From assembly GCF_013403245.1 (NCBI RefSeq), contig NZ_JACBNQ010000025.1, forward strand, positions 1 to 46,366: 46,366 nucleotides of DNA. Direction: 5' to 3'. Made by a program: the position numbers and the translations under genes. This DNA is from Sedimentibacter hydroxybenzoicus DSM 7310. Lineage in GTDB: Bacteria; Bacillota; Clostridia; Tissierellales; Sedimentibacteraceae. Each line of letters begins with the position of its first letter. Position 1 is the first letter of the stretch. Below are positions 11,341-19,655 of this stretch, piece by piece. The notes under the pieces are model-generated. The model searched no databases. It saw only the letters and a list, made by a program, of their open reading frames with translations, and was not told where the DNA came from.

Positions 11341-11369
11341 TTGACATATGAATTTTATGGTAGTATAAT
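11341..11369 (+). promoter_or_regulatory. Consensus sigma-A promoter of the his operon
   Basis: A perfect TTGACA (11341-11346), a 17-base spacer and a perfect TATAAT (11364-11369). This is the strongest promoter-like sequence in the window and lies immediately upstream of the His-rich leader ORF. Confidence 0.85.
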
Positions 11370-11392
11370 CAGGTAATTTAATGAGGTGTATT

Positions 11393-11455
11393 ATGAAAAA
11401 TATATGTTTATGGATACAATTACATCATCATCATAGGTACAGGGTTTGTAAGTGA
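11393..11455 (+). CDS. hisL: His operon leader peptide with four consecutive His codons
   Basis: A 20-codon ORF starting ATG at 11393, preceded by GAGGTG at 11383-11388, and stopping at TGA 11453-11455. Codons 11-14 are CAT CAT CAT CAT, giving the peptide core LHHHHRYR. Four His in 20 residues, between a consensus promoter and an intrinsic terminator directly before hisZ, is the hallmark of a ribosome-mediated attenuation leader, as in enterobacterial hisL. The frame is too short for length-based gene calling, and the function is inferred from codon content and position. Confidence 0.85.
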   Translation: MKNICLWIQLHHHHRYRVCK

Positions 11456-11475
11456 TCGAAAATTAATTTTCAATT

Positions 11476-11580
11476 CACAGCTACAAGCTCTATTAGTCGT
11501 ATTTTAGAGAGACTTGTATCTGTGGTATATAAAGAGATCAAAACCATCTGATATAGGTCAGATGGTTTTTTTATTGGGAG
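11476..11580 (+). promoter_or_regulatory. his operon attenuator (anti-terminator region and terminator)
   Basis: Two structures follow the leader ORF. CACAG-TACAAG (11476-11487) pairs with CTTGTA-CTGTG (11513-11524) around one mismatch. Further on, AAACCATCTGA (11541-11551) and TCAGATGGTTT (11558-11568) form an 11-bp hairpin ending in a run of seven T (11566-11572), an intrinsic terminator. The CTTGTATC strand can also pair with GATACAA (11413-11419) just ahead of the His codons, so alternative folds exist. The exact antiterminator was not resolved by eye. No T-box signature (AGGGTGG) was found. Confidence 0.75.
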
Positions 11581-11586
11581 GTAGTT

Positions 11587-12537
11587 ATGAAGTTTTTAAA
11601 TATCGAAGACGAAATGAAGTATTTTCAAAAAATGTTTGTACTGAGAAGGGAAATTGAAGATTTTCTTTTTGAAGAAGGATACATAAACATTGAGCCGTCT
11701 ATTTTTGAGGGGTATGATGAATTTATCGAAATTAATTCAAGAATAAACAAAAAATCAACCGTAAAGGTATTGGACAACAACTCAGAAATTTTAATATTGA
11801 CGCCGGACATAACCACAGGAATAGTAAATAAATTTCTTCCCAGATGGGAATACGGCCAAAAGCTGAAGATTTTCTATTATGGCAAGACCTACAAGCATAA
11901 TGGTACAGGCATTAAGGAAAACAGAGAAATGGGCGTTGAAATAATCGGTGAAAAAAATTCAAATACAGATCAGTACATTCTGAGTGCGGCAAGACGCATA
12001 ATAAGCAGGTACAGCGATGAATATTTGCTGGAAATAGGAAACAGTAAGTTTTTAAAGGGCATAATGCAGTCATGCTCCTTTAACAAGGAAAATTATGACA
12101 ATGTTATGGAGCTTTTATATTCCAAGAACAGACAGGAATTAAAGGAATATTTGTCCGGGCTGCCCTTCAGAGATGTTATGAGTACCTTGTTAAATATTTT
12201 AGACTTAGAAGGAACCTTTGACGAAATTATGGAGCAGCTGGACGGCTTGTATTTAAATGACCTGATGAAGCAGGGAATAGAAGAACTGAGACAGATTGAT
12301 AATGAAATGAAAAATACAGACCACAGAGTTTCTTATGATTTGTCCATGGTTTCAGAGCTCAGTTATTATGATGGAATAATATTGAGAGGATATATTAAAG
12401 GATCTAATAAGGAAATTATAAGAGGCGGAAGGTATGACTCCTTTACGAAGCAATATGGACAAAACATACCTGCAATCGGGTTTAAGGTGGAGCTCGACGA
12501 ACTGATTAAAGTTTTATACAAGGAGGAGCAGAAATGA
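11587..12537 (+). CDS. hisZ: ATP phosphoribosyltransferase regulatory subunit HisZ
   Basis: A 316-residue class II aminoacyl-tRNA synthetase-like protein lacking tRNA-synthetase function. It binds the short-form HisG and confers activity and histidine feedback. The motif-2 region (RWEYGQKLKIFYYGKTYKH) and a GGRYDSF block typical of HisZ/HisS are visible. It is somewhat shorter than many HisZ proteins. Presence matches the short HisG encoded next. GGGAGGT lies just after the terminator T-run, so translation starts only if transcription reads past the attenuator. Confidence 0.93.
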   Translation: MKFLNIEDEMKYFQKMFVLRREIEDFLFEEGYINIEPSIFEGYDEFIEINSRINKKSTVKVLDNNSEILILTPDITTGIVNKFLPRWEYGQKLKIFYYGKTYKHNGTGIKENREMGVEIIGEKNSNTDQYILSAARRIISRYSDEYLLEIGNSKFLKGIMQSCSFNKENYDNVMELLYSKNRQELKEYLSGLPFRDVMSTLLNILDLEGTFDEIMEQLDGLYLNDLMKQGIEELRQIDNEMKNTDHRVSYDLSMVSELSYYDGIILRGYIKGSNKEIIRGGRYDSFTKQYGQNIPAIGFKVELDELIKVLYKEEQK

Positions 12538-13172
12538 GCCTGACTATAGCAATTCCAAAGGGAAGATTAGGAACACAGGCAATACAGATGTTTAAGGCAG
12601 GGGGCATAGGAGAATCAATAGATGAAAAGTCAAGAAAGCTTGTTTTTAAGGATGAGGATATAAACATCAGCTTCATTTTACTTAAAAATTCCGATGTTAT
12701 CACTTATATTGAAAACGGAATTGCCGACATAGGCATTTCCGGAAAGGACATGATAATGGAAAAAGGGGCTGACATTTTTGAATTATACCAGATGAACATA
12801 GGCAGATGTAAAATGTCTGTGGCGGGAATTAAGGGTAAAAAGGTGTTCAAGGATGACACCATCATGAGAGTGGCAACCAAATTTCCGGAAATAACAAAAA
12901 AATACTTTGACAGCAGGGGACAAAGGATAAATATAATCAAGCTGAACGGCTCAATAGAGCTTGCCCCCATATTGGGGCTTTCGGATGTGATAGTCGACAT
13001 TGTTGAAACAGGAAATACTTTAAAAGCCAACGGCCTTGAAGTTTTTGAGGATATGTATCACATAAGCGCAATGATGATTTCAAACAGAATAAGCTATAAA
13101 TTCAAAAGGAAAGAAATAAAAAAAATCGTAGAATTGATAAGAGGTGAGGACGAAGATGGTCAGGATAATTAA
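12534..13172 (+). CDS. hisG: ATP phosphoribosyltransferase HisG (short form)
   Basis: A 212-residue catalytic subunit for the first step of histidine synthesis (ATP plus PRPP to phosphoribosyl-ATP). Recognisable blocks are AIPKGRLG at the N-terminus, GIADIGISGKDMI, and the PRPP-binding region around DVIVDIVETGNTLKANGL. It lacks the C-terminal regulatory domain of long HisG enzymes, so it depends on HisZ. Start overlaps the hisZ stop by 4 bases. Confidence 0.97.
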   Translation: MSLTIAIPKGRLGTQAIQMFKAGGIGESIDEKSRKLVFKDEDINISFILLKNSDVITYIENGIADIGISGKDMIMEKGADIFELYQMNIGRCKMSVAGIKGKKVFKDDTIMRVATKFPEITKKYFDSRGQRINIIKLNGSIELAPILGLSDVIVDIVETGNTLKANGLEVFEDMYHISAMMISNRISYKFKRKEIKKIVELIRGEDEDGQDN

Positions 13173-14475
13173 AGATAACGGTGCAGAGGAATTTTTAGAT
13201 GCCGTAAAGAAACGAAACAGTGAGGATTATAACAATGTTTATGATGCGGTAGACAGAGTACTGGATGCTGTACGAATAAACAAGGATGCTGCAGTGAGAA
13301 AATATACATACGAATTTGACAATGTTAATCTTGAAAATCTTCAGGTTACGGAAAATGAAATAGAACAGGCTTTCAAAACCATTGATCCGGAGCTTCTTGA
13401 AACCATAAAAAAAGCAAAGGAAAATATTGAAGCCTTTCACATTAAGCAAAAAAGAAACGGATATAAGTTTAAGCCTGAGGGAAAGGACATATTGCTGGGA
13501 CAGCTTATCAATCCTATTGAAAAGGCAGGAATATATGTGCCCGGAGGCAAGGCAGCCTATCCGTCAACCGTGTTGATGAACGCCATACCTGCCAAAATTG
13601 CGGGAGTAAATGAAATAATTATGATTACGCCTCCCCAGCCGGACGGAAGCATTAAGGATTCCATACTGGTTGCTGCATCATTGTCGGGAGTTGATAAAAT
13701 ATTCAAGGTGGGAGGTGCTCAGGGAATAGGCGCACTTGCTTACGGCACCGAATCAATTCCCAAAGTGTACAAAATAACGGGACCGGGAAACATTTACGTG
13801 GCAGCAGCAAAAAGGAGAGTTTCAGGCTTTGTGGGTATAGACATGATTGCCGGACCAAGTGAAATATTAATAATTGCGGATGAATTTGCCAATTCGGCTT
13901 ACATTGCCGCAGACATGATTTCTCAGGCAGAGCACGATGAAATGGCAGCATCAATTTTGGTTACAAATTCATGTACCGTGGCTAAAAAGGTTCAGGCTGA
14001 GCTTGAGAAGCAGTTAAGTAAGCTTGAACGCAGGGAAATCATAGTAAAATCCCTTGAAAATCAAGGTGCTATAATAGTAACAGATTCATTGAGTCAATGC
14101 GTTGAACTGTCAAATGAAATAGCTCCAGAGCATCTGGAACTTCTGACGGCAAATTCCTTTGAGCTTTATAAAAGCATAAAAAATGCCGGAGCAATATTTA
14201 TGGGAGAATACAGCCCTGAGCCTGTGGGTGATTACTTTGCGGGACCAAATCACACACTTCCCACAAGCTCTACAGCTAAATTTTCCTCGGCTCTGTCGGT
14301 TGATGACTTTATAAAAAAGACATCACTGATTTATTACAGCAAGGAAGCACTTAAGGAAAGTGCCGATGACATAATCAGATTTGCCGAAAATGAGGGCTTA
14401 AACGGTCATGCCAATGCAGTCAGAATACGTAAGCAGGAGTGGACACAAAATATATCTAACGGAGAACTACAATGA
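13156..14475 (+). CDS. hisD: Histidinol dehydrogenase HisD
   Basis: About 439 residues. A zinc enzyme that oxidises L-histidinol to L-histidine in two NAD-dependent steps. The family signature region is present (IDMIAGPSEILIIAD, SQAEHDE with zinc-ligand Gln/His, and APEHLEL). The frame extends to a GTG at 13144, but GAGGTGAGG is best spaced to the ATG at 13156, which gives the N-terminus MVRIIKDNG. It overlaps the end of hisG by 17 bases, consistent with translational coupling. Confidence 0.97.
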   Translation: MVRIIKDNGAEEFLDAVKKRNSEDYNNVYDAVDRVLDAVRINKDAAVRKYTYEFDNVNLENLQVTENEIEQAFKTIDPELLETIKKAKENIEAFHIKQKRNGYKFKPEGKDILLGQLINPIEKAGIYVPGGKAAYPSTVLMNAIPAKIAGVNEIIMITPPQPDGSIKDSILVAASLSGVDKIFKVGGAQGIGALAYGTESIPKVYKITGPGNIYVAAAKRRVSGFVGIDMIAGPSEILIIADEFANSAYIAADMISQAEHDEMAASILVTNSCTVAKKVQAELEKQLSKLERREIIVKSLENQGAIIVTDSLSQCVELSNEIAPEHLELLTANSFELYKSIKNAGAIFMGEYSPEPVGDYFAGPNHTLPTSSTAKFSSALSVDDFIKKTSLIYYSKEALKESADDIIRFAENEGLNGHANAVRIRKQEWTQNISNGELQ

Positions 14476-15509
14476 TTAAATTAAAACCAAGTGTGGAAAG
14501 GCTTCAGGCATACTTTGTAAACGACATACCCTACAGAGTGAAGCTTGATGCCAACGAAGGAAGTAATTATTTATTAACAGAAGGATTTAAAATGGAAAGC
14601 TTCAGTCCAAATTTATATCCTGACAGTGACTCGGTGGTATTAAGAAAGAAAATGGCAGCATACTACGGCTGCAGTCCGGATAACATCATGGTTGGAAACG
14701 GCTCCAGTGAAATGATAAACATGGTAATCAATGCTTATTGCGAAAAAGATGACAGGGTTATGAGCTTCGTGCCCTCCTTCAGCATGTATCAGACATACTG
14801 TGATTTATGCGGTGCAGAATATGTAGGTATTGAGACAGAAAATGATTTCTCTCAGAATATGGATAAATTAATAAAGGCTGTCAAGGAGCAAAAACCTAAG
14901 GTTGTAATAGTATGCACTCCCAATAATCCCACAGGCTTCGTTACTCCCAGAGAGGATATAATAGGTCTGCTGGAAAGTACGGAGGATTCACTTGTTATTC
15001 TGGACGAGGCATATATTGATTTTTCAGAGGGGTCAACCATTGAACTCATAAATACATATGAAAATCTGGTGGTTATGAGGACATTGTCAAAGGCATTCGG
15101 TCTTGCGGGACTCCGAGTGGGTGCGTTGATTGCAAAGGAAGAGACTGTGAGGTACATATGGAAGGTTAAAGTGCCTTACAACATAAATGTGTTGTCCCAA
15201 TATGCCGCAGAGCAGGCACTTGAAAATAAGGACAGAGTAAATGCATATATAAGCAGTGTTAAATCACTCAGAAGCGAGCTTGCTGAAAATCTTGAGATCT
15301 TAGGCTTTAAGATATATCCTTCCGGTGCAAATTTTCTTTTCGTACAATCACCTGTGGATAATCTATACGAAAAGCTGATGGAAAAAGGAGTGCTTATAAG
15401 AAAAATAAGCTATAAGGGAGTTGCCTATAATCGTATAACCGTGGGAACAAAAGAAGAAAATGAAATATTGATAAATGAAATTAAAAAAATTAATGGGGAA
15501 GATATATGA
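14472..15509 (+). CDS. hisC: Histidinol-phosphate aminotransferase HisC
   Basis: A 345-residue fold-type I PLP aminotransferase that makes histidinol phosphate from imidazole-acetol phosphate and glutamate. The PLP lysine is predicted at Lys207 in TLSKAFGLAGLRVG; NNPTG and VILDEAYIDF are also conserved. Overlaps both neighbours by 4 bases (ATGA). Confidence 0.96.
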   Translation: MIKLKPSVERLQAYFVNDIPYRVKLDANEGSNYLLTEGFKMESFSPNLYPDSDSVVLRKKMAAYYGCSPDNIMVGNGSSEMINMVINAYCEKDDRVMSFVPSFSMYQTYCDLCGAEYVGIETENDFSQNMDKLIKAVKEQKPKVVIVCTPNNPTGFVTPREDIIGLLESTEDSLVILDEAYIDFSEGSTIELINTYENLVVMRTLSKAFGLAGLRVGALIAKEETVRYIWKVKVPYNINVLSQYAAEQALENKDRVNAYISSVKSLRSELAENLEILGFKIYPSGANFLFVQSPVDNLYEKLMEKGVLIRKISYKGVAYNRITVGTKEENEILINEIKKINGEDI

Positions 15510-16084
15510 GAAAAAGTACGATAACGCGAAAGACTAATGAAACCGAAATAAATGTTGAGCTTAATATTGACGGCAGCGGTATAACAGAAATAGATACGGG
15601 TATAGGATTTTTAAATCACATGCTTGAGCTGCTTGGATTTCACGCAGGTCTTGATTTGAAAATCAAATGTGCCGGTGATCTGGATGTGGATACTCACCAC
15701 ACCTCAGAGGACATTGGCATTGCCCTTGGTCAGTCATTCAGAGAGGCATTGGGAGATAAAAAAGGAATCGAAAGATACGGATTCATGCTTCTCCCCATGG
15801 ATGAAACATTGGCGAGAGTGGCACTGGACTTTTCCGGCAGACCTCATCTTGCTTACAAGGTTGATTTGAAAAGAGATATGATCGGCAGCATGGCAGCTGA
15901 AGATTTTAAAGAATTTTTTAACGGCTTTGTAAATAATTCATTGTGCACTCTTCACATGGAGGTTTTGTACGGAGAAAATGATCATCACAAAATAGAAGCG
16001 GTATTCAAGGGCTTCGGAAGAGCATTAAGAACAGCGGTCAGAATAACCTCGGACAATCTGCAGTCAACAAAGGGGGTTCTGTAA
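15506..16084 (+). CDS. hisB: Imidazoleglycerol-phosphate dehydratase HisB
   Basis: A 192-residue monofunctional dehydratase. It carries both manganese-binding signatures, DTHHTSEDIGIALG in the first half and ENDHHKIEAVFKGFGRAL in the second. There is no HAD-type histidinol-phosphatase domain; that step is supplied by the PHP protein at the end of the operon. Its TAA shares one base with the hisH ATG. Confidence 0.98.
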   Translation: MRKSTITRKTNETEINVELNIDGSGITEIDTGIGFLNHMLELLGFHAGLDLKIKCAGDLDVDTHHTSEDIGIALGQSFREALGDKKGIERYGFMLLPMDETLARVALDFSGRPHLAYKVDLKRDMIGSMAAEDFKEFFNGFVNNSLCTLHMEVLYGENDHHKIEAVFKGFGRALRTAVRITSDNLQSTKGVL

Positions 16085-16689
16085 TGCACGTAATAATTGA
16101 TTATGGCATGGGAAATTTAGCATCCGTTCAAAGAGCATTTGAAAAGCTGGACGTAAATGTTAAGATAAGCAATAAGGAAGAGGACCTGAGAAATGCAAAA
16201 TCCCTCATACTTCCGGGAGTGGGAGCCTTCAGAGATGCAATCGGGCTTCTGAATGAATCGGGGCTGAGCTCCGTTATAAAAGAAGAGGTTTCCAAGGGCA
16301 AAAATATTATAGGTATATGTCTCGGCATGCAGCTTTTGTATGAAAAAGGATATGAGTACGGAGAATATGACGGTCTCGGGTTAATAAAGGGAAGCATCGA
16401 ATACCTGGATATAGAGCTTAAGGTTCCTCACATGGGATGGAACAACCTTAAATTTAATAAGCAGGACCCCATATTGAAATATATAAATGAGGATGAATTT
16501 GTGTACTTTGTTCATTCCTACTATGCGGTTTCTGATAATTCAGAGGTGCTGGCTTATTCGGAATACGGAAAAAAGATTCCTGCAATTGTGAGAAACGAAA
16601 ATGTATACGGAATTCAGTTTCATCCGGAGAAAAGCGGCGATGTTGGGCTGAACATTTTAAGAGCGTATAAAGAGATTATGGAAAAATAG
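16084..16689 (+). CDS. hisH: Imidazole glycerol phosphate synthase glutaminase subunit HisH
   Basis: A 201-residue class I glutamine amidotransferase. It feeds ammonia to HisF. The nucleophile is Cys79 in GICLGMQLL, and the catalytic His-Glu pair lies in IQFHPEKSGD near residue 183. Length and motifs are typical. Confidence 0.98.
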   Translation: MHVIIDYGMGNLASVQRAFEKLDVNVKISNKEEDLRNAKSLILPGVGAFRDAIGLLNESGLSSVIKEEVSKGKNIIGICLGMQLLYEKGYEYGEYDGLGLIKGSIEYLDIELKVPHMGWNNLKFNKQDPILKYINEDEFVYFVHSYYAVSDNSEVLAYSEYGKKIPAIVRNENVYGIQFHPEKSGDVGLNILRAYKEIMEK

Positions 16690-16707
16690 CAAGTGAAGGG
16701 AGAAAAA

Positions 16708-17421
16708 ATGATACTATTTCCTGCAATAGACATAAAGGACAATCAATGTGTGAGACTTACACAGGGTAAATTCGATCAGGTGAATGTGTATTCGGCAGAC
16801 CCTGTTGAAATGGCAAAGAAATGGGAGTCCATGGGAGCTCGATATCTCCATGTGGTTGATCTTGACGGAGCAAAAAGCGAAGGCTTTCAAAATAAAAAAT
16901 CCATAGAAAAAATAATAAAATCAATAAAAATACCCGTGCAGATAGGCGGAGGCATAAGAAACGAAGAACGGATAAAGGAACTGCTGAATGCAGGTGCACA
17001 AAGAGTTATAGTGGGCACCATGGCAATAGAGCAGCAGGAGCTTCTGACCGAGCTTGCGGCAGTGTACAAGGAGCATCTGGCAGTTTCAATCGATGCGTTA
17101 AACGGAAAGGTAGCCACAAGAGGATGGCAGGATGTTGCGGATGTTGATTCGATAGATTTATGTAAGCTTTTAGAATCAATCGGCATAAAGCATGTTGTGT
17201 ATACGGATATTTCAAAGGACGGAATGCTTTCCGGTCCCAATTTCCACATATATGAGGAATTGTCGCAAAAAACGGGAATCAATATAATTGCTTCAGGAGG
17301 GGTTACGACACTTGATGATATCAGAAAGCTAAACAGCATGAATTTGTACGGTGCAATAATAGGAAAGGCACTGTATGACAACAGACTGGATTTTAAGGAA
17401 GCACTGAGAGAGATAAATTAA
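16708..17421 (+). CDS. hisA: ProFAR isomerase HisA
   Basis: About 237 residues. A (beta-alpha)8-barrel that isomerises ProFAR to PRFAR. Asp8 in FPAIDIKDN is the predicted catalytic acid/base; IGGGIRNEE and the second-half phosphate-binding ASGGV are present. The frame can be extended to a GTG at 16693, but GAAGGGAG is properly spaced to the ATG at 16708 and the barrel normally begins MILFPAID. Confidence 0.97.
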   Translation: MILFPAIDIKDNQCVRLTQGKFDQVNVYSADPVEMAKKWESMGARYLHVVDLDGAKSEGFQNKKSIEKIIKSIKIPVQIGGGIRNEERIKELLNAGAQRVIVGTMAIEQQELLTELAAVYKEHLAVSIDALNGKVATRGWQDVADVDSIDLCKLLESIGIKHVVYTDISKDGMLSGPNFHIYEELSQKTGINIIASGGVTTLDDIRKLNSMNLYGAIIGKALYDNRLDFKEALREIN

Positions 17422-17442
17422 ATAAAGGTGATGGAGGTAATT

Positions 17443-18201
17443 ATGCTTGCACGAAGAATCATACCATGTCTCGATGTCAGAAACGGACGTGTTGTAAAGG
17501 GAACAAAATTTGAGGATATACAGGATGTTAACGATCCTGTGGTGTTAGGGAAGTTTTATTCGGACTCGGGAGCAGACGAGCTTGTGTTTTATGATATAAC
17601 CGCTTCAAATGAAGAGAGAAAGACATCATTGGAGTTTGTCAAAAGGGTTGCTCATGAAATAAACATACCATTTTGTGTGGGAGGCGGAGTTTCAACCCTG
17701 GAGGATTTTAAGTATATTTTAAGAAGCGGTGCAGACAAGGTTTCTGTCAACTCATCAGCTGTTAAAAATCCAAATCTCATAAAGCAGGCTTCGGAACGAT
17801 TTGGAAATCAATGTGTGGTACTGTCCATAGATGCAAAAAAAAATGAAAATGAATCCTGGGATGTATATGTGAAGGGCGGAAGAGAAAATACCCGTATGGA
17901 TGCCGTAGAATGGGCCGTAAGAGGCGTTGAACTGGGGGCAGGAGAAATAGTTGTCAACAGCATTGATGAAGACGGTATGAAAAACGGCTATGATATTGAG
18001 CTTCTGAAAAAAATAACACAATCTGTAAATGTACCCGTTATAGCGTCAGGTGGTGCGGGGAAAATGGAGCATTTTCTGGATGCGGTAAAATATGAGGATG
18101 CTGACGGCATTTTAGCCGCTTCAGTGTTTCATTTCAATGAAATCGGAATAATGGATTTAAAAAAATACTTAAAAGACAATGGCGTAAGCGTCAGATTATA
18201 G
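17443..18201 (+). CDS. hisF: Imidazole glycerol phosphate synthase cyclase subunit HisF
   Basis: About 252 residues. A (beta-alpha)8-barrel with Asp11 in [10 protein letters not shown] and the second catalytic Asp in the LSIDAKKN strand. It works with HisH to produce IGP and AICAR. A GTG-initiated extension from 17428 exists, but GGAGG (17433-17437) is placed for the ATG at 17443 and the family starts at MLARRIIP. Confidence 0.97.
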
Positions 18202-18210
18202 AGGAGTAAA

Positions 18211-18834
18211 ATGGAAGTAAAACAATTTATAGACAATATCAGATTTGATGATAAGGGACTGGTTGCAGCCGTAGCTCAGGATTACAAAACCAATGAGGTA
18301 CTGATGGTTGCTTATATGAACAAAGAATCAGTTGAAATAACCCTGAATGAAAAAAGAGCGTGCTATTTTTCAAGGAGCAGGAACTGCCTTTGGAGAAAGG
18401 GGGACACATCGGGACATGTGCAGCATTTAAAAGGCATGTATTATGACTGTGACGGAGATGCAATTCTCATGAAGGTGGAGCAGACAGGAGCAGCCTGTCA
18501 CACAGGAGCATATTCCTGCTTTTTCAACAAAGTGTACGAGGATGGAGTAACAGACCAGTCTGTAATAAACAAGGTATACAATCAGATTATCAACAGACGG
18601 GATAATCCGCAGGAAGGATCATACACAAATTATTTGTTTGACAAGGGTCTGGATAAAATTCTGAAAAAGGTGGGAGAAGAAACAAGCGAGGTAATCATCG
18701 GAGCAAAAAATAAAAACAAGGAAGAGCTTGTTTATGAAATGTGTGATCTTGTATATCACTCCCTGGTACTTATGGTTAACGAAGGTGTAACCATTGACGA
18801 TTTGAAAAAGGAATTAACTAAACGACACAAATAA
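18211..18834 (+). CDS. hisIE: Bifunctional phosphoribosyl-AMP cyclohydrolase / phosphoribosyl-ATP pyrophosphatase HisIE
   Basis: A 207-residue fusion. The N-terminal HisI half has the [14 protein letters not shown] block, DCDGDAIL and the zinc-ligand cysteines in [11 protein letters not shown]. The C-terminal HisE half has [16 protein letters not shown], the helical MazG-like pyrophosphatase core. It performs steps two and three of the pathway. GAGGAG precedes the ATG. Confidence 0.97.
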
Positions 18835-18854
18835 AATTGATAGATGGAGGCGGC

Positions 18855-19655
18855 ATGCAAAATTTACATACTCATACCCTTTACTGTGACGGGAAAAACA
18901 GTACGGAGGAAATGATACAGGCAGCCATAAAACGAGGCTTTGATGCTATAGGAATTTCAACCCATGGACCCGTACCCTTTGCAAGTGACTGGAACATACA
19001 AAAGGAAAATATCGAAGCATATATAGAAGAAGTGAATTTATTAAAGGAAAAATACAAAAATGAAATTAAAGTATATCTGGGAATGGAGATGGATTATATT
19101 CCGGGCGCAGGCTTTGATGAAGAGGTTAAAGCTCTCATAAACAGACTTGATTATTACATCGGCTCCGTCCATTATCTGGGCAAATTAAATGACGGTACGA
19201 TGTGGACAATTGATTACAACATGGATGAATTAAGCCGTGGAATCAATGAATCCTACAATAGAAACATACGATACGCCGTAGAGGCATACTACAATTTAGT
19301 TGCAGAGATGGCAATAAATTACGAGCCCCCCATCATCGGGCATATTGATCTGATTAAAAAGCTCAACAGAAACAACATATTGTTTGATGAAAATGAAGCA
19401 TGGTACAGACAATGCATCGAAAGGTGTCTCAATATAATCAGATACACAAGCTCGGCCATAGAAATAAACACAGGCGGCATGGCACGGGGATACACAGAGG
19501 AACAATACCCCTCAACCTTTATATTAAAATCCATAGAAGAAAAAAATATCCCCGTCATCATCAATTCAGATGCCCACACAGCTGACGGAATTGACTACAA
19601 GCTAAAAGAAATGTACGAATTAGTCAGCGGCTTAGACATAAAAATATGTTTATAG
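18855..19655 (+). CDS. hisJ: Histidinol-phosphatase, PHP family
   Basis: About 266 residues. A PHP-fold metallophosphatase that hydrolyses histidinol phosphate. The His-x-His metal motif is at residues 5-7 (NLHTHTLYCDG), with STHGP, GSVHYLG, GHIDLIK and the C-terminal NSDAH also present. The open frame begins at a TTG (18837), but GGAGG at 18846-18850 and the family N-terminus favour the ATG at 18855. It completes the pathway, supplying the phosphatase that monofunctional HisB lacks. Confidence 0.92.
   Translation: MQNLHTHTLYCDGKNSTEEMIQAAIKRGFDAIGISTHGPVPFASDWNIQKENIEAYIEEVNLLKEKYKNEIKVYLGMEMDYIPGAGFDEEVKALINRLDYYIGSVHYLGKLNDGTMWTIDYNMDELSRGINESYNRNIRYAVEAYYNLVAEMAINYEPPIIGHIDLIKKLNRNNILFDENEAWYRQCIERCLNIIRYTSSAIEINTGGMARGYTEEQYPSTFILKSIEEKNIPVIINSDAHTADGIDYKLKEMYELVSGLDIKICL

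Follow-up and report, generated by a model that had tools for sequence, protein, structure and literature searches.

In Firmicutes, where T-boxes are the more familiar device, histidine biosynthesis (his) genes are usually under T-box RNAs or repressors, and ribosome-stalling leaders of the hisL kind are best known from Proteobacteria. The E. coli-type His_leader is laid out in six segments, A–F. Here, we describe a putative ribosome-mediated transcription attenuator 5′ of the his operon of Sedimentibacter hydroxybenzoicus DSM 7310, located in a stretch of 46,366 nucleotides (contig NZ_JACBNQ010000025.1 of assembly GCF_013403245.1; hereafter the window). A first-pass annotation of this stretch had proposed a His leader-peptide attenuator ahead of the operon, and the proposal is supported by a conserved His leader and by the lack of a T-box match in the window. 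We put the probability of ribosome-mediated attenuation at about 0.9.

The closest described systems come from three studies. His leaders were reported 5′ of hisZ and hisS* in bacilli (Naville and Gautheret 2010, PMC2965389). Candidate His RNA attenuators were reported in the B. cereus group, in four Peptostreptococcaceae plus Lutispora and in Erysipelotrichales, in a survey that lists the his operon of Gottschalkia (Tissierellales) under HisR and whose main text contains no occurrence of Sedimentibacter (Ashniev et al. 2022, PMC9413887). The first-pass view that a his leader is unusual in Firmicutes must be tempered, as leader-peptide control of his genes there is already published in these two papers. 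Third, the study that described the trpB motif (RF04312) presented it as a strong riboswitch candidate, with the speculation that it binds a ligand of amino acid metabolism; its authors leave a classic attenuator open, and the term 'leader peptide' does not occur in their paper (PMC11109978, 2024).

The window element resembles the attenuators described by Ashniev et al. in its His-rich leader (three to five His in a row in theirs), its attenuator and terminator hairpins, its his operon and its occurrence in a genome without HisR or a His T-box; compared by description only, it differs in that other sensor amino acids occur on the same layout here and none in the passages of that survey. With the leader of Naville and Gautheret it shares a stretch of His codons in a short open reading frame (ORF) before hisZ and a premature terminator, but theirs come from bacilli, and the likeness noted here is one of layout. 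The E. coli hisL-type His_leader (RF00514) works by the same principle, the position of the ribosome on His codons, but has no match in this genome, and the window has a layout of its own, termed R0–R5 here. T-boxes (RF00230) likewise couple a terminator and an antiterminator to an amino acid, but none matches the window. By itself, the His element is a further member of a published kind; a scaffold shared between sensors and a new reading of RF04312 are less expected.

The leader region, on the + strand like all features below, begins with a sigma-70-type promoter (TTGACA-17-TATAAT, 11341–11369) that agrees with the consensus at 12 of 12 positions. A ribosome-binding site read in the sequence (GAGGTG, 11383–11388), also found 5′ of the leader in the Sedimentibacter relatives compared, precedes a leader ORF of 20 codons (MKNICLWIQLHHHHRYRVCK and a stop codon; 11393–11455). 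The sensor consists of four consecutive CAT (His) codons (11423–11434). Promoter, leader and CAT run are borne out as first annotated, and the sequence contains what is expected of an attenuator in this respect: a short ORF with a codon run for the operon's own amino acid. R1 (GGGTTTGTA, 11442–11450) overlaps the end of the leader ORF and, according to pair counts in 21 elements, is a partner of R2 (11476–11490). By covariation and covariance models, R2 uses residues 11482–11490 to pair with R1 and residues 11476–11487 to pair with R3 in the P2 helix. R3 (CTTGTATCTGTGGTAT, 11513–11528) has R2 as its terminating partner by covariation and R4 as its antiterminator partner by predicted folds. R4 (11540–11553) is both the 5′ arm of the terminator and the antiterminator partner of R3, and R5 (11558–11572) comprises the 3′ arm of the intrinsic terminator and its T run. 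R0 (AGGTACA, 11435–11441) is a tentative segment that, in predicted folds, could pair with R3 when no ribosome is present. A terminator search confirms the annotated terminator at 11540–11569, although its stem has 13 pairs by the tool instead of the 11 first counted, followed by T's. Of 200 dinucleotide shuffles of the leader RNA, 199 fold less well than the native sequence (z −4.23).

The His-rich leader is conserved across relatives, as the first-pass annotation had anticipated. HisZ was sought in 80 genomes and the best 30 loci were examined, with further, weaker matches left out. At least three consecutive His codons are present in a leader at 26 of the 30 hisZ-like loci fetched, some of which are near-identical (L020/L021 and L027/L028). 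The run has length 3 in 18 loci and length 4 in 8, using 80 CAT and 6 CAC codons. The four loci without a leader (L043, L044, L045 and L047) are HisZ matches of 30–32% identity, and L047 has only ∼150 bases upstream. Within the genus, the RNA element is present in 18 of 18 genomes with a HisZ match below 1e-100, the window's own included, and in two more with a weak HisZ match (about 1e-12), where it lies 5′ of hisG (G019, L079) or at a contig end (G005, L091). A HisZ match below 1e-100 is also lacking in the five genomes of the genus that have no element (G004, G006, G011, G015 and G017). In G019, a draft assembly, no hisZ follows the leader, and hisG has an ORF of only 104 codons. Four Sedimentibacter loci (L022, L024, L033 and L034) have repeat-like inserts (CCTAACCCC ... 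GGTAGGTCAA) between their terminator and hisZ.

R1 is conserved as RNA. Seven bases of R1, G[AG]GUUUG, sit 5–8 nt past the last His codon. The frame of R1 relative to the His codons varies among loci, which yields RVCK, SKSL and RTKSL endings, and in L041 and L046 the leader stop codon lies 5′ of R1; because the frame varies, what is kept in R1 is the RNA. The helices were counted in an alignment of 21 His elements, from which L021, L024, L027 and L028 (near-duplicates or close relatives) and L040 (long loop) were left out. R1 pairs with CAAGCUC in R2 in 98.8% of cells, compared with 29–56% in slid controls, and 5 of 500 shuffles reach this percentage. R2:R3 (P2) and R4:R5 together are paired in 91.8% of cells with nine pairs changed on both sides, a number reached by 3 of 500 shuffles, and their covariation score is reached by none of the 500. 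The eight terminator pairs counted are 100% paired, and in five of them both partners change. R1 (U/C), R2 (A/G) and R3 (U/C) vary partly together at one position. The sequences thus point to mutually exclusive terminator and antiterminator folds, with R1:R2, R2:R3 and R4:R5 indicated by pair counts and R3:R4 by predicted folds.

R1 and R2 also belong together across more distant elements. The duplex of R1 with its own R2 is more stable than that with the R2 of another element among 29 RF04312 matches from the relatives and the class (−18.37 versus −11.79 kcal/mol) and among 126 elements of an RF04312-rich order (−16.82 versus −12.40 kcal/mol), with 0 of 5000 permutations reaching the difference in each case, in a test that ignores relatedness and leaves L102 outside. 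An alternative pairing noted in the first pass, GATACAA (11413–11419) with TTGTATC (11514–11520), is an exact complement, but comparison and folding favor R1 (11442–11450) with R2 (11482–11490), as part of a better-supported competition among R1:R2, R2:R3 and R3:R4. The former helix was not counted as conserved; relatives mostly have GTACAA or GTGCAA there. The loop of the R2–R3 hairpin (11491–11500, UAUUAGUCGU) is kept in sequence among many His elements, and its AGUC is able to pair with GACU within the hairpin.

In the proposed mechanism, RNA polymerase would start near 11376, a position assumed from the promoter, and a ribosome would translate the 20-codon leader. When charged His-tRNA is scarce, the ribosome would halt on the CAT run and leave R1 free; R1 would pair with R2, R3 would pair with R4, the terminator 5′ arm, and the his operon would be transcribed. 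When His-tRNA is abundant, the ribosome would reach the stop codon and cover R1, and R2:R3 and the terminator R4:R5 would form. If the leader is not translated, R0:R3 around R1:R2 may restrain the antiterminator, for which the prediction is mixed.

Folding predictions, in which ribosome positions were masked, agree with these steps in part. For window transcripts ending at 11558–11562 with His codon 1 or 2 in the A site, R1:R2 and R3:R4 are predicted with 5.7–7.1 expected pairs each. With the ribosome at the stop codon, where the loss of R1:R2 is imposed by the mask, R2:R3 has 6.0 expected pairs and the antiterminator 0.0–0.4 at the same ends, and the growing terminator has 4.7 at 11562. Without a ribosome, R1:R2 stands alongside R0:R3 (4.6 and 3.5 at ends 11558 and 11562); R0:R3 also has a small share with His codon 1 in the A site. 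Among the 21 elements, the antiterminator is higher in the stalled than in the stop-codon state in 18 (means of 6.5 versus 2.6 expected pairs, averaged over decision lengths), and the stop-codon state has the higher R2:R3 in 20 and the higher terminator in 20. In the window, a dependence of the fold on ribosome position is thus predicted at ends 11558–11562, but the stalled state lacks it at other lengths, full length included.

A number of results weigh against ribosome-mediated attenuation in the window, or at least against its simplest form. With His codons 3 and 4 in the A site, R1:R2 and R3:R4 are weaker (1.3–4.8 expected pairs). The ribosome-free state is mixed, with the antiterminator also present (1.9 and 3.6) and R0:R3 about equal to R3:R4 at 11562 (3.5 versus 3.6). 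At ends 11535 and 11554, the stalled states consist mostly of R2:R3, not R1:R2, and in the full-length transcript (11575) all states have the terminator as their stable fold. Because the terminator wins at full length and R2:R3 forms in stalled states at some ends, the decision must be kinetic, and the switch would rest on timing, as far as predicted folds can tell. The antiterminator comparison fails in three of the 21 elements (L025, L036 and L039) and has a small margin in L026, L030 and L033. For R1:R2, only two pairs are changed on both sides, a number that 186 of 500 shuffles reach, and five of its eight pairs are invariant in this Sedimentibacter-centered alignment; within the 21 His elements, the gap between matched and mismatched duplexes is small (−13.63 versus −12.73). 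Owing to the mixed ribosome-free fold, together with the conserved Gln and Arg residues described below, our estimate for attenuation fell from 0.92 to 0.91, and that for arrest by the nascent peptide rose slightly.

The leader of the window connects this element to RF04312, which is its top Rfam match (28.4 bits, E 0.037; gathering score 59). Both have a P2 hairpin with a CAUAGAUAC/GUAUCUAUG core and a terminator, and a sensor-codon leader ORF and R1 lie directly upstream of the RF04312 model, which begins downstream of R1 and the ORF. The antiterminator of RF04312 was proposed in the right shoulder of the P2 hairpin, as here. The two differ in that RF04312 matches over or near the cut-off have mostly Trp sensors and the window scores below the gathering score. 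RF04312 is above the cut-off in one of 398 genomes of the phylum (G858); matches are found in 27 of 29 genomes of the family of G858, and its order has 127 matches in 116 of 246 genomes, with 49 rows above the cut-off. In the 127 matches (87 fetched regions and 40 further loci), a leader ORF ending just 5′ of the Rfam model has Trp among its last ten codons in 122, compared with 5–12 in five shuffles and 6 of 126 in the stretch 120 bases further upstream. When the ORF with the most Trp is picked, all 49 rows above the cut-off carry one or more Trp codons near the leader end, and 44 carry two or more. The five remaining matches comprise L248, L265 and L271, which have Tyr/Phe leaders, L153, counted as a miss because the script found no ORF despite TGG codons visible upstream, and L154, which was rejected. 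Searches of literature listings that cover few subscription journals turned up no leader peptide of the trpB motif.

The genes downstream of the 127 matches have a TrpX-like motif in 106 cases, a TrpB pattern in 4, an AroE pattern in 1 and neither in 16, as judged by a simple pattern. One of the 16, L141, encodes an enzyme of the PALP family whose start resembles that of TrpB. Pfam assigns L139 to PF04392, L160 to TrpP, and L158, L164 and L265, which have FYFSYYR-like leaders, to shikimate dehydrogenase. Leader codons track the gene: His occurs with hisZ, hisS, hisG and hisD, and Trp with the TrpX-like binding protein, trpB and trpP, while Tyr leaders accompany aroE and transporters.

Further sensors were found with RF04312 and with covariance models built here, which are also numbered R1, R2 and R3 but are search models distinct from the RNA segments; model and RF04312 rows falling on known elements were matched by coordinates. 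Model R1 has matches in 40 of the 249 genomes searched in the order and in 11 of 391 in the class; one of each was rejected as false (G054/L088 in the order and G281/L100 in the class). Besides hisZ, the element lies 5′ of hisS (L081 and L109 by Pfam, L083 by gene start), hisG (L079) and hisD (L098), and two distant members have interrupted His runs, HIHH (L087) and HNHH (L086). RF04312 gives 14 rows in 80 relatives, 11 with a sensor leader (8 His, 2 Phe-type and 1 Tyr), and 23 rows in 391 genomes of the class, none above the cut-off and 19 with a sensor leader (9 His, 5 Tyr, 3 Phe-type and 2 Leu). The Tyr, Phe-type and Leu calls were made by eye; Tyr and Phe are mixed in L121, L137, L158, L164 and L265, and the calls for L104 and for L116 (identical with element L096) are weak ones. 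A leader ending in KYYYYYSHYF before its stop codon precedes an ABC permease (L136, PF02653), leaders ending in NNNFFFSFFR (L125) and FNRVLLLADLF (L135) precede sodium symporters (PF00209), and one ending in NTYYYGYYR (L138) precedes a gene that starts like the sodium symporters. L284 has a third Leu leader, L102 has a Tyr leader, and the reverse-strand match L101 was replaced by the forward element L136. Rows that proved to be terminators at gene ends or to have no sensor leader were dropped (L088, L100, L108, L110, L114, L124, L127, L133, L134, L154 and L304–L308). The leader YYFSYFG of L121 stands 5′ of a gene of a branched-chain amino acid transporter family (PF05525), for which its codons suggest an aromatic substrate.

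An alignment of 33 elements with His, Trp, Tyr, Phe and Leu sensors (A3), comprising one Sedimentibacter and other His elements, has 95.3% paired cells and 15 of 22 pairs changed on both sides, and none of 500 shuffles equals it on any of five measures; L113 and L137 are absent from A3 and from a further alignment, A4. Model R2, derived from A3, gives 44 rows in 42 of 120 relatives, one of them in the window's genome and six rejected. Because A3 contains His elements, these were excluded from model R3, which draws on 24 elements with other sensors. Its top match places the window element at 11471–11577 (35.1 bits, E 7.3e-5), ahead of a next match of 21.2 bits. Model R3 was given 22 of the 26 His loci, leaving out L021, L024, L027 and L028, and recovers all 22 in the right place and on the right strand (E up to 9.1e-4), with eight weaker rows that are the same hairpins on the other strand. 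It finds nothing above 19 bits in the four leaderless hisZ-like loci and ten other stretches. We consider it probable that the elements with His, Trp, Tyr, Phe and Leu sensors are versions of a single RNA scaffold in which sensor codons can be exchanged, used for amino-acid genes throughout Clostridia and in a second order of the phylum, probably Lactobacillales, and that the Rfam trpB motif represents the tryptophan version, a leader-peptide attenuator with its ORF immediately beyond the edge of the model as published. Other Firmicutes would then use the same arrangement of sensor ORF, R1, R2–R3 hairpin and terminator, with Trp, Tyr, Phe or Leu replacing His. On the other side of the balance, five RF04312 rows above the cut-off have a single Trp codon, and the window is among the three weakest of the 22 loci with model R3.

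The alternative that survives best concerns the shared origin of these elements, not the mechanism in the window: the His, Trp, Tyr, Phe and Leu attenuators could have arisen independently, with a layout that such a switch demands. The R1:R2 sequences differ between the groups and the His elements found score below the RF04312 cut-off, as convergence would allow, but a P2 core (CAUAGAUACAA / UUGUAUCUAUG) is common in sequence across sensors and a model free of His elements detects all 22 that it was given. Independent origin is therefore rather doubtful, although part of the layout could have converged, and the sequences make shared descent likely.

Arrest by the nascent peptide bears on the mechanism itself. 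TnaC is a leader peptide that arrests the ribosome in response to a free amino acid, and the leader here could likewise stall it on free amino acid instead of by codon starvation. Residues other than the sensor are conserved: Gln occurs in 115 and Arg in 116 of the 127 Trp-type leaders (22–34 and 28–42 in shuffles), and Ser (98) and Asn (97) are likewise above shuffles, because the leader end, typically WQxWRR, is conserved as a whole. Codon starvation alone leaves Gln and Arg unexplained; RNA pairing could account for them, and the conservation of WQxWRR may reflect a peptide or an RNA constraint. RVCK endings in most Sedimentibacter leaders would also fit arrest, as would two further motifs: 20 of 26 leaders have ACAATT or ACAACT (encoding Q-L/F; 11413–11422 in the window) 5′ of the His run, and 32 of 122 Trp leaders have [QK]L[NH] 5′ of Trp. 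Either motif may be an RNA or a peptide feature. However, residues past the His run change in frame and sequence between genera, the conserved residues overlap pairing bases (R0 and R1), consecutive sensor codons suit codon starvation, and the sensor changes with the gene. We judge peptide arrest very unlikely beside ribosome-mediated attenuation by codon starvation.

Searches for known regulators bear on the remaining alternative. Covariance searches found no T-box or His_leader in the window; RF00230 has no match there or on its contig (150 of 170 first-look candidates scored across the genome), and RF00514 has none in the window or the genome (150 of 219 first-look candidates scored). A TrpR/HisR family search, which detects the family in B. 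subtilis and E. coli, found nothing above the cut-off in the genome. Its sole match, L048, was rejected as such a regulator, as it scores below the cut-off, its neighbors resemble a toxin–antitoxin pair of what we take to be the HigB/HigA type, and the gene looks like the antitoxin. For hisS of the same genome (L274), none of the T-box matches listed falls on its contig (C2), and the stretch examined has no His-run leader; an inverted repeat, GGACGGTTCT ... AGAACCGTCC, lies 5′ of this gene (about 790–915 of L274). That a T-box or small-molecule riboswitch senses histidine or its tRNA, the His-rich ORF being incidental, has in its favor the 31 T-box matches that the genome has elsewhere (with 150 of 170 first-look candidates scored) and the publication of RF04312 as a strong riboswitch candidate (PMC11109978), but it is the least credible explanation, as every Rfam family stays below its gathering score in the window and leader codons follow the downstream gene, a match that a ligand-binding RNA would not need.

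The operon under the putative attenuator starts with hisZ (11587–12537; PF13393, 9.1e-46) and continues with hisG-hisD-hisC-hisB-hisH-hisA-hisF-hisIE and a PHP phosphatase gene (12534–19655), named by family and order. By Pfam family and order, the ten ORFs in 11587–19655 fit HisZ, HisG, HisD, HisC (aminotransferase), HisB, HisH (amidotransferase), HisA, HisF, HisIE and a PHP-domain phosphatase, so the operon is complete through the phosphatase as first described.

The window adds a His member in a genus absent from the main text of the earlier His survey (PMC9413887). If the shared scaffold is real, the orphan candidate RF04312 would be explained by ribosome stalling at Trp codons, not by a ligand, and leader-peptide attenuation would be a reusable platform in Firmicutes. 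Sensor codons could then help to predict the substrates of uncharacterized transporters, such as those with Tyr, Phe-type or Leu leaders at sodium symporters and with Trp leaders at ABC binding proteins.

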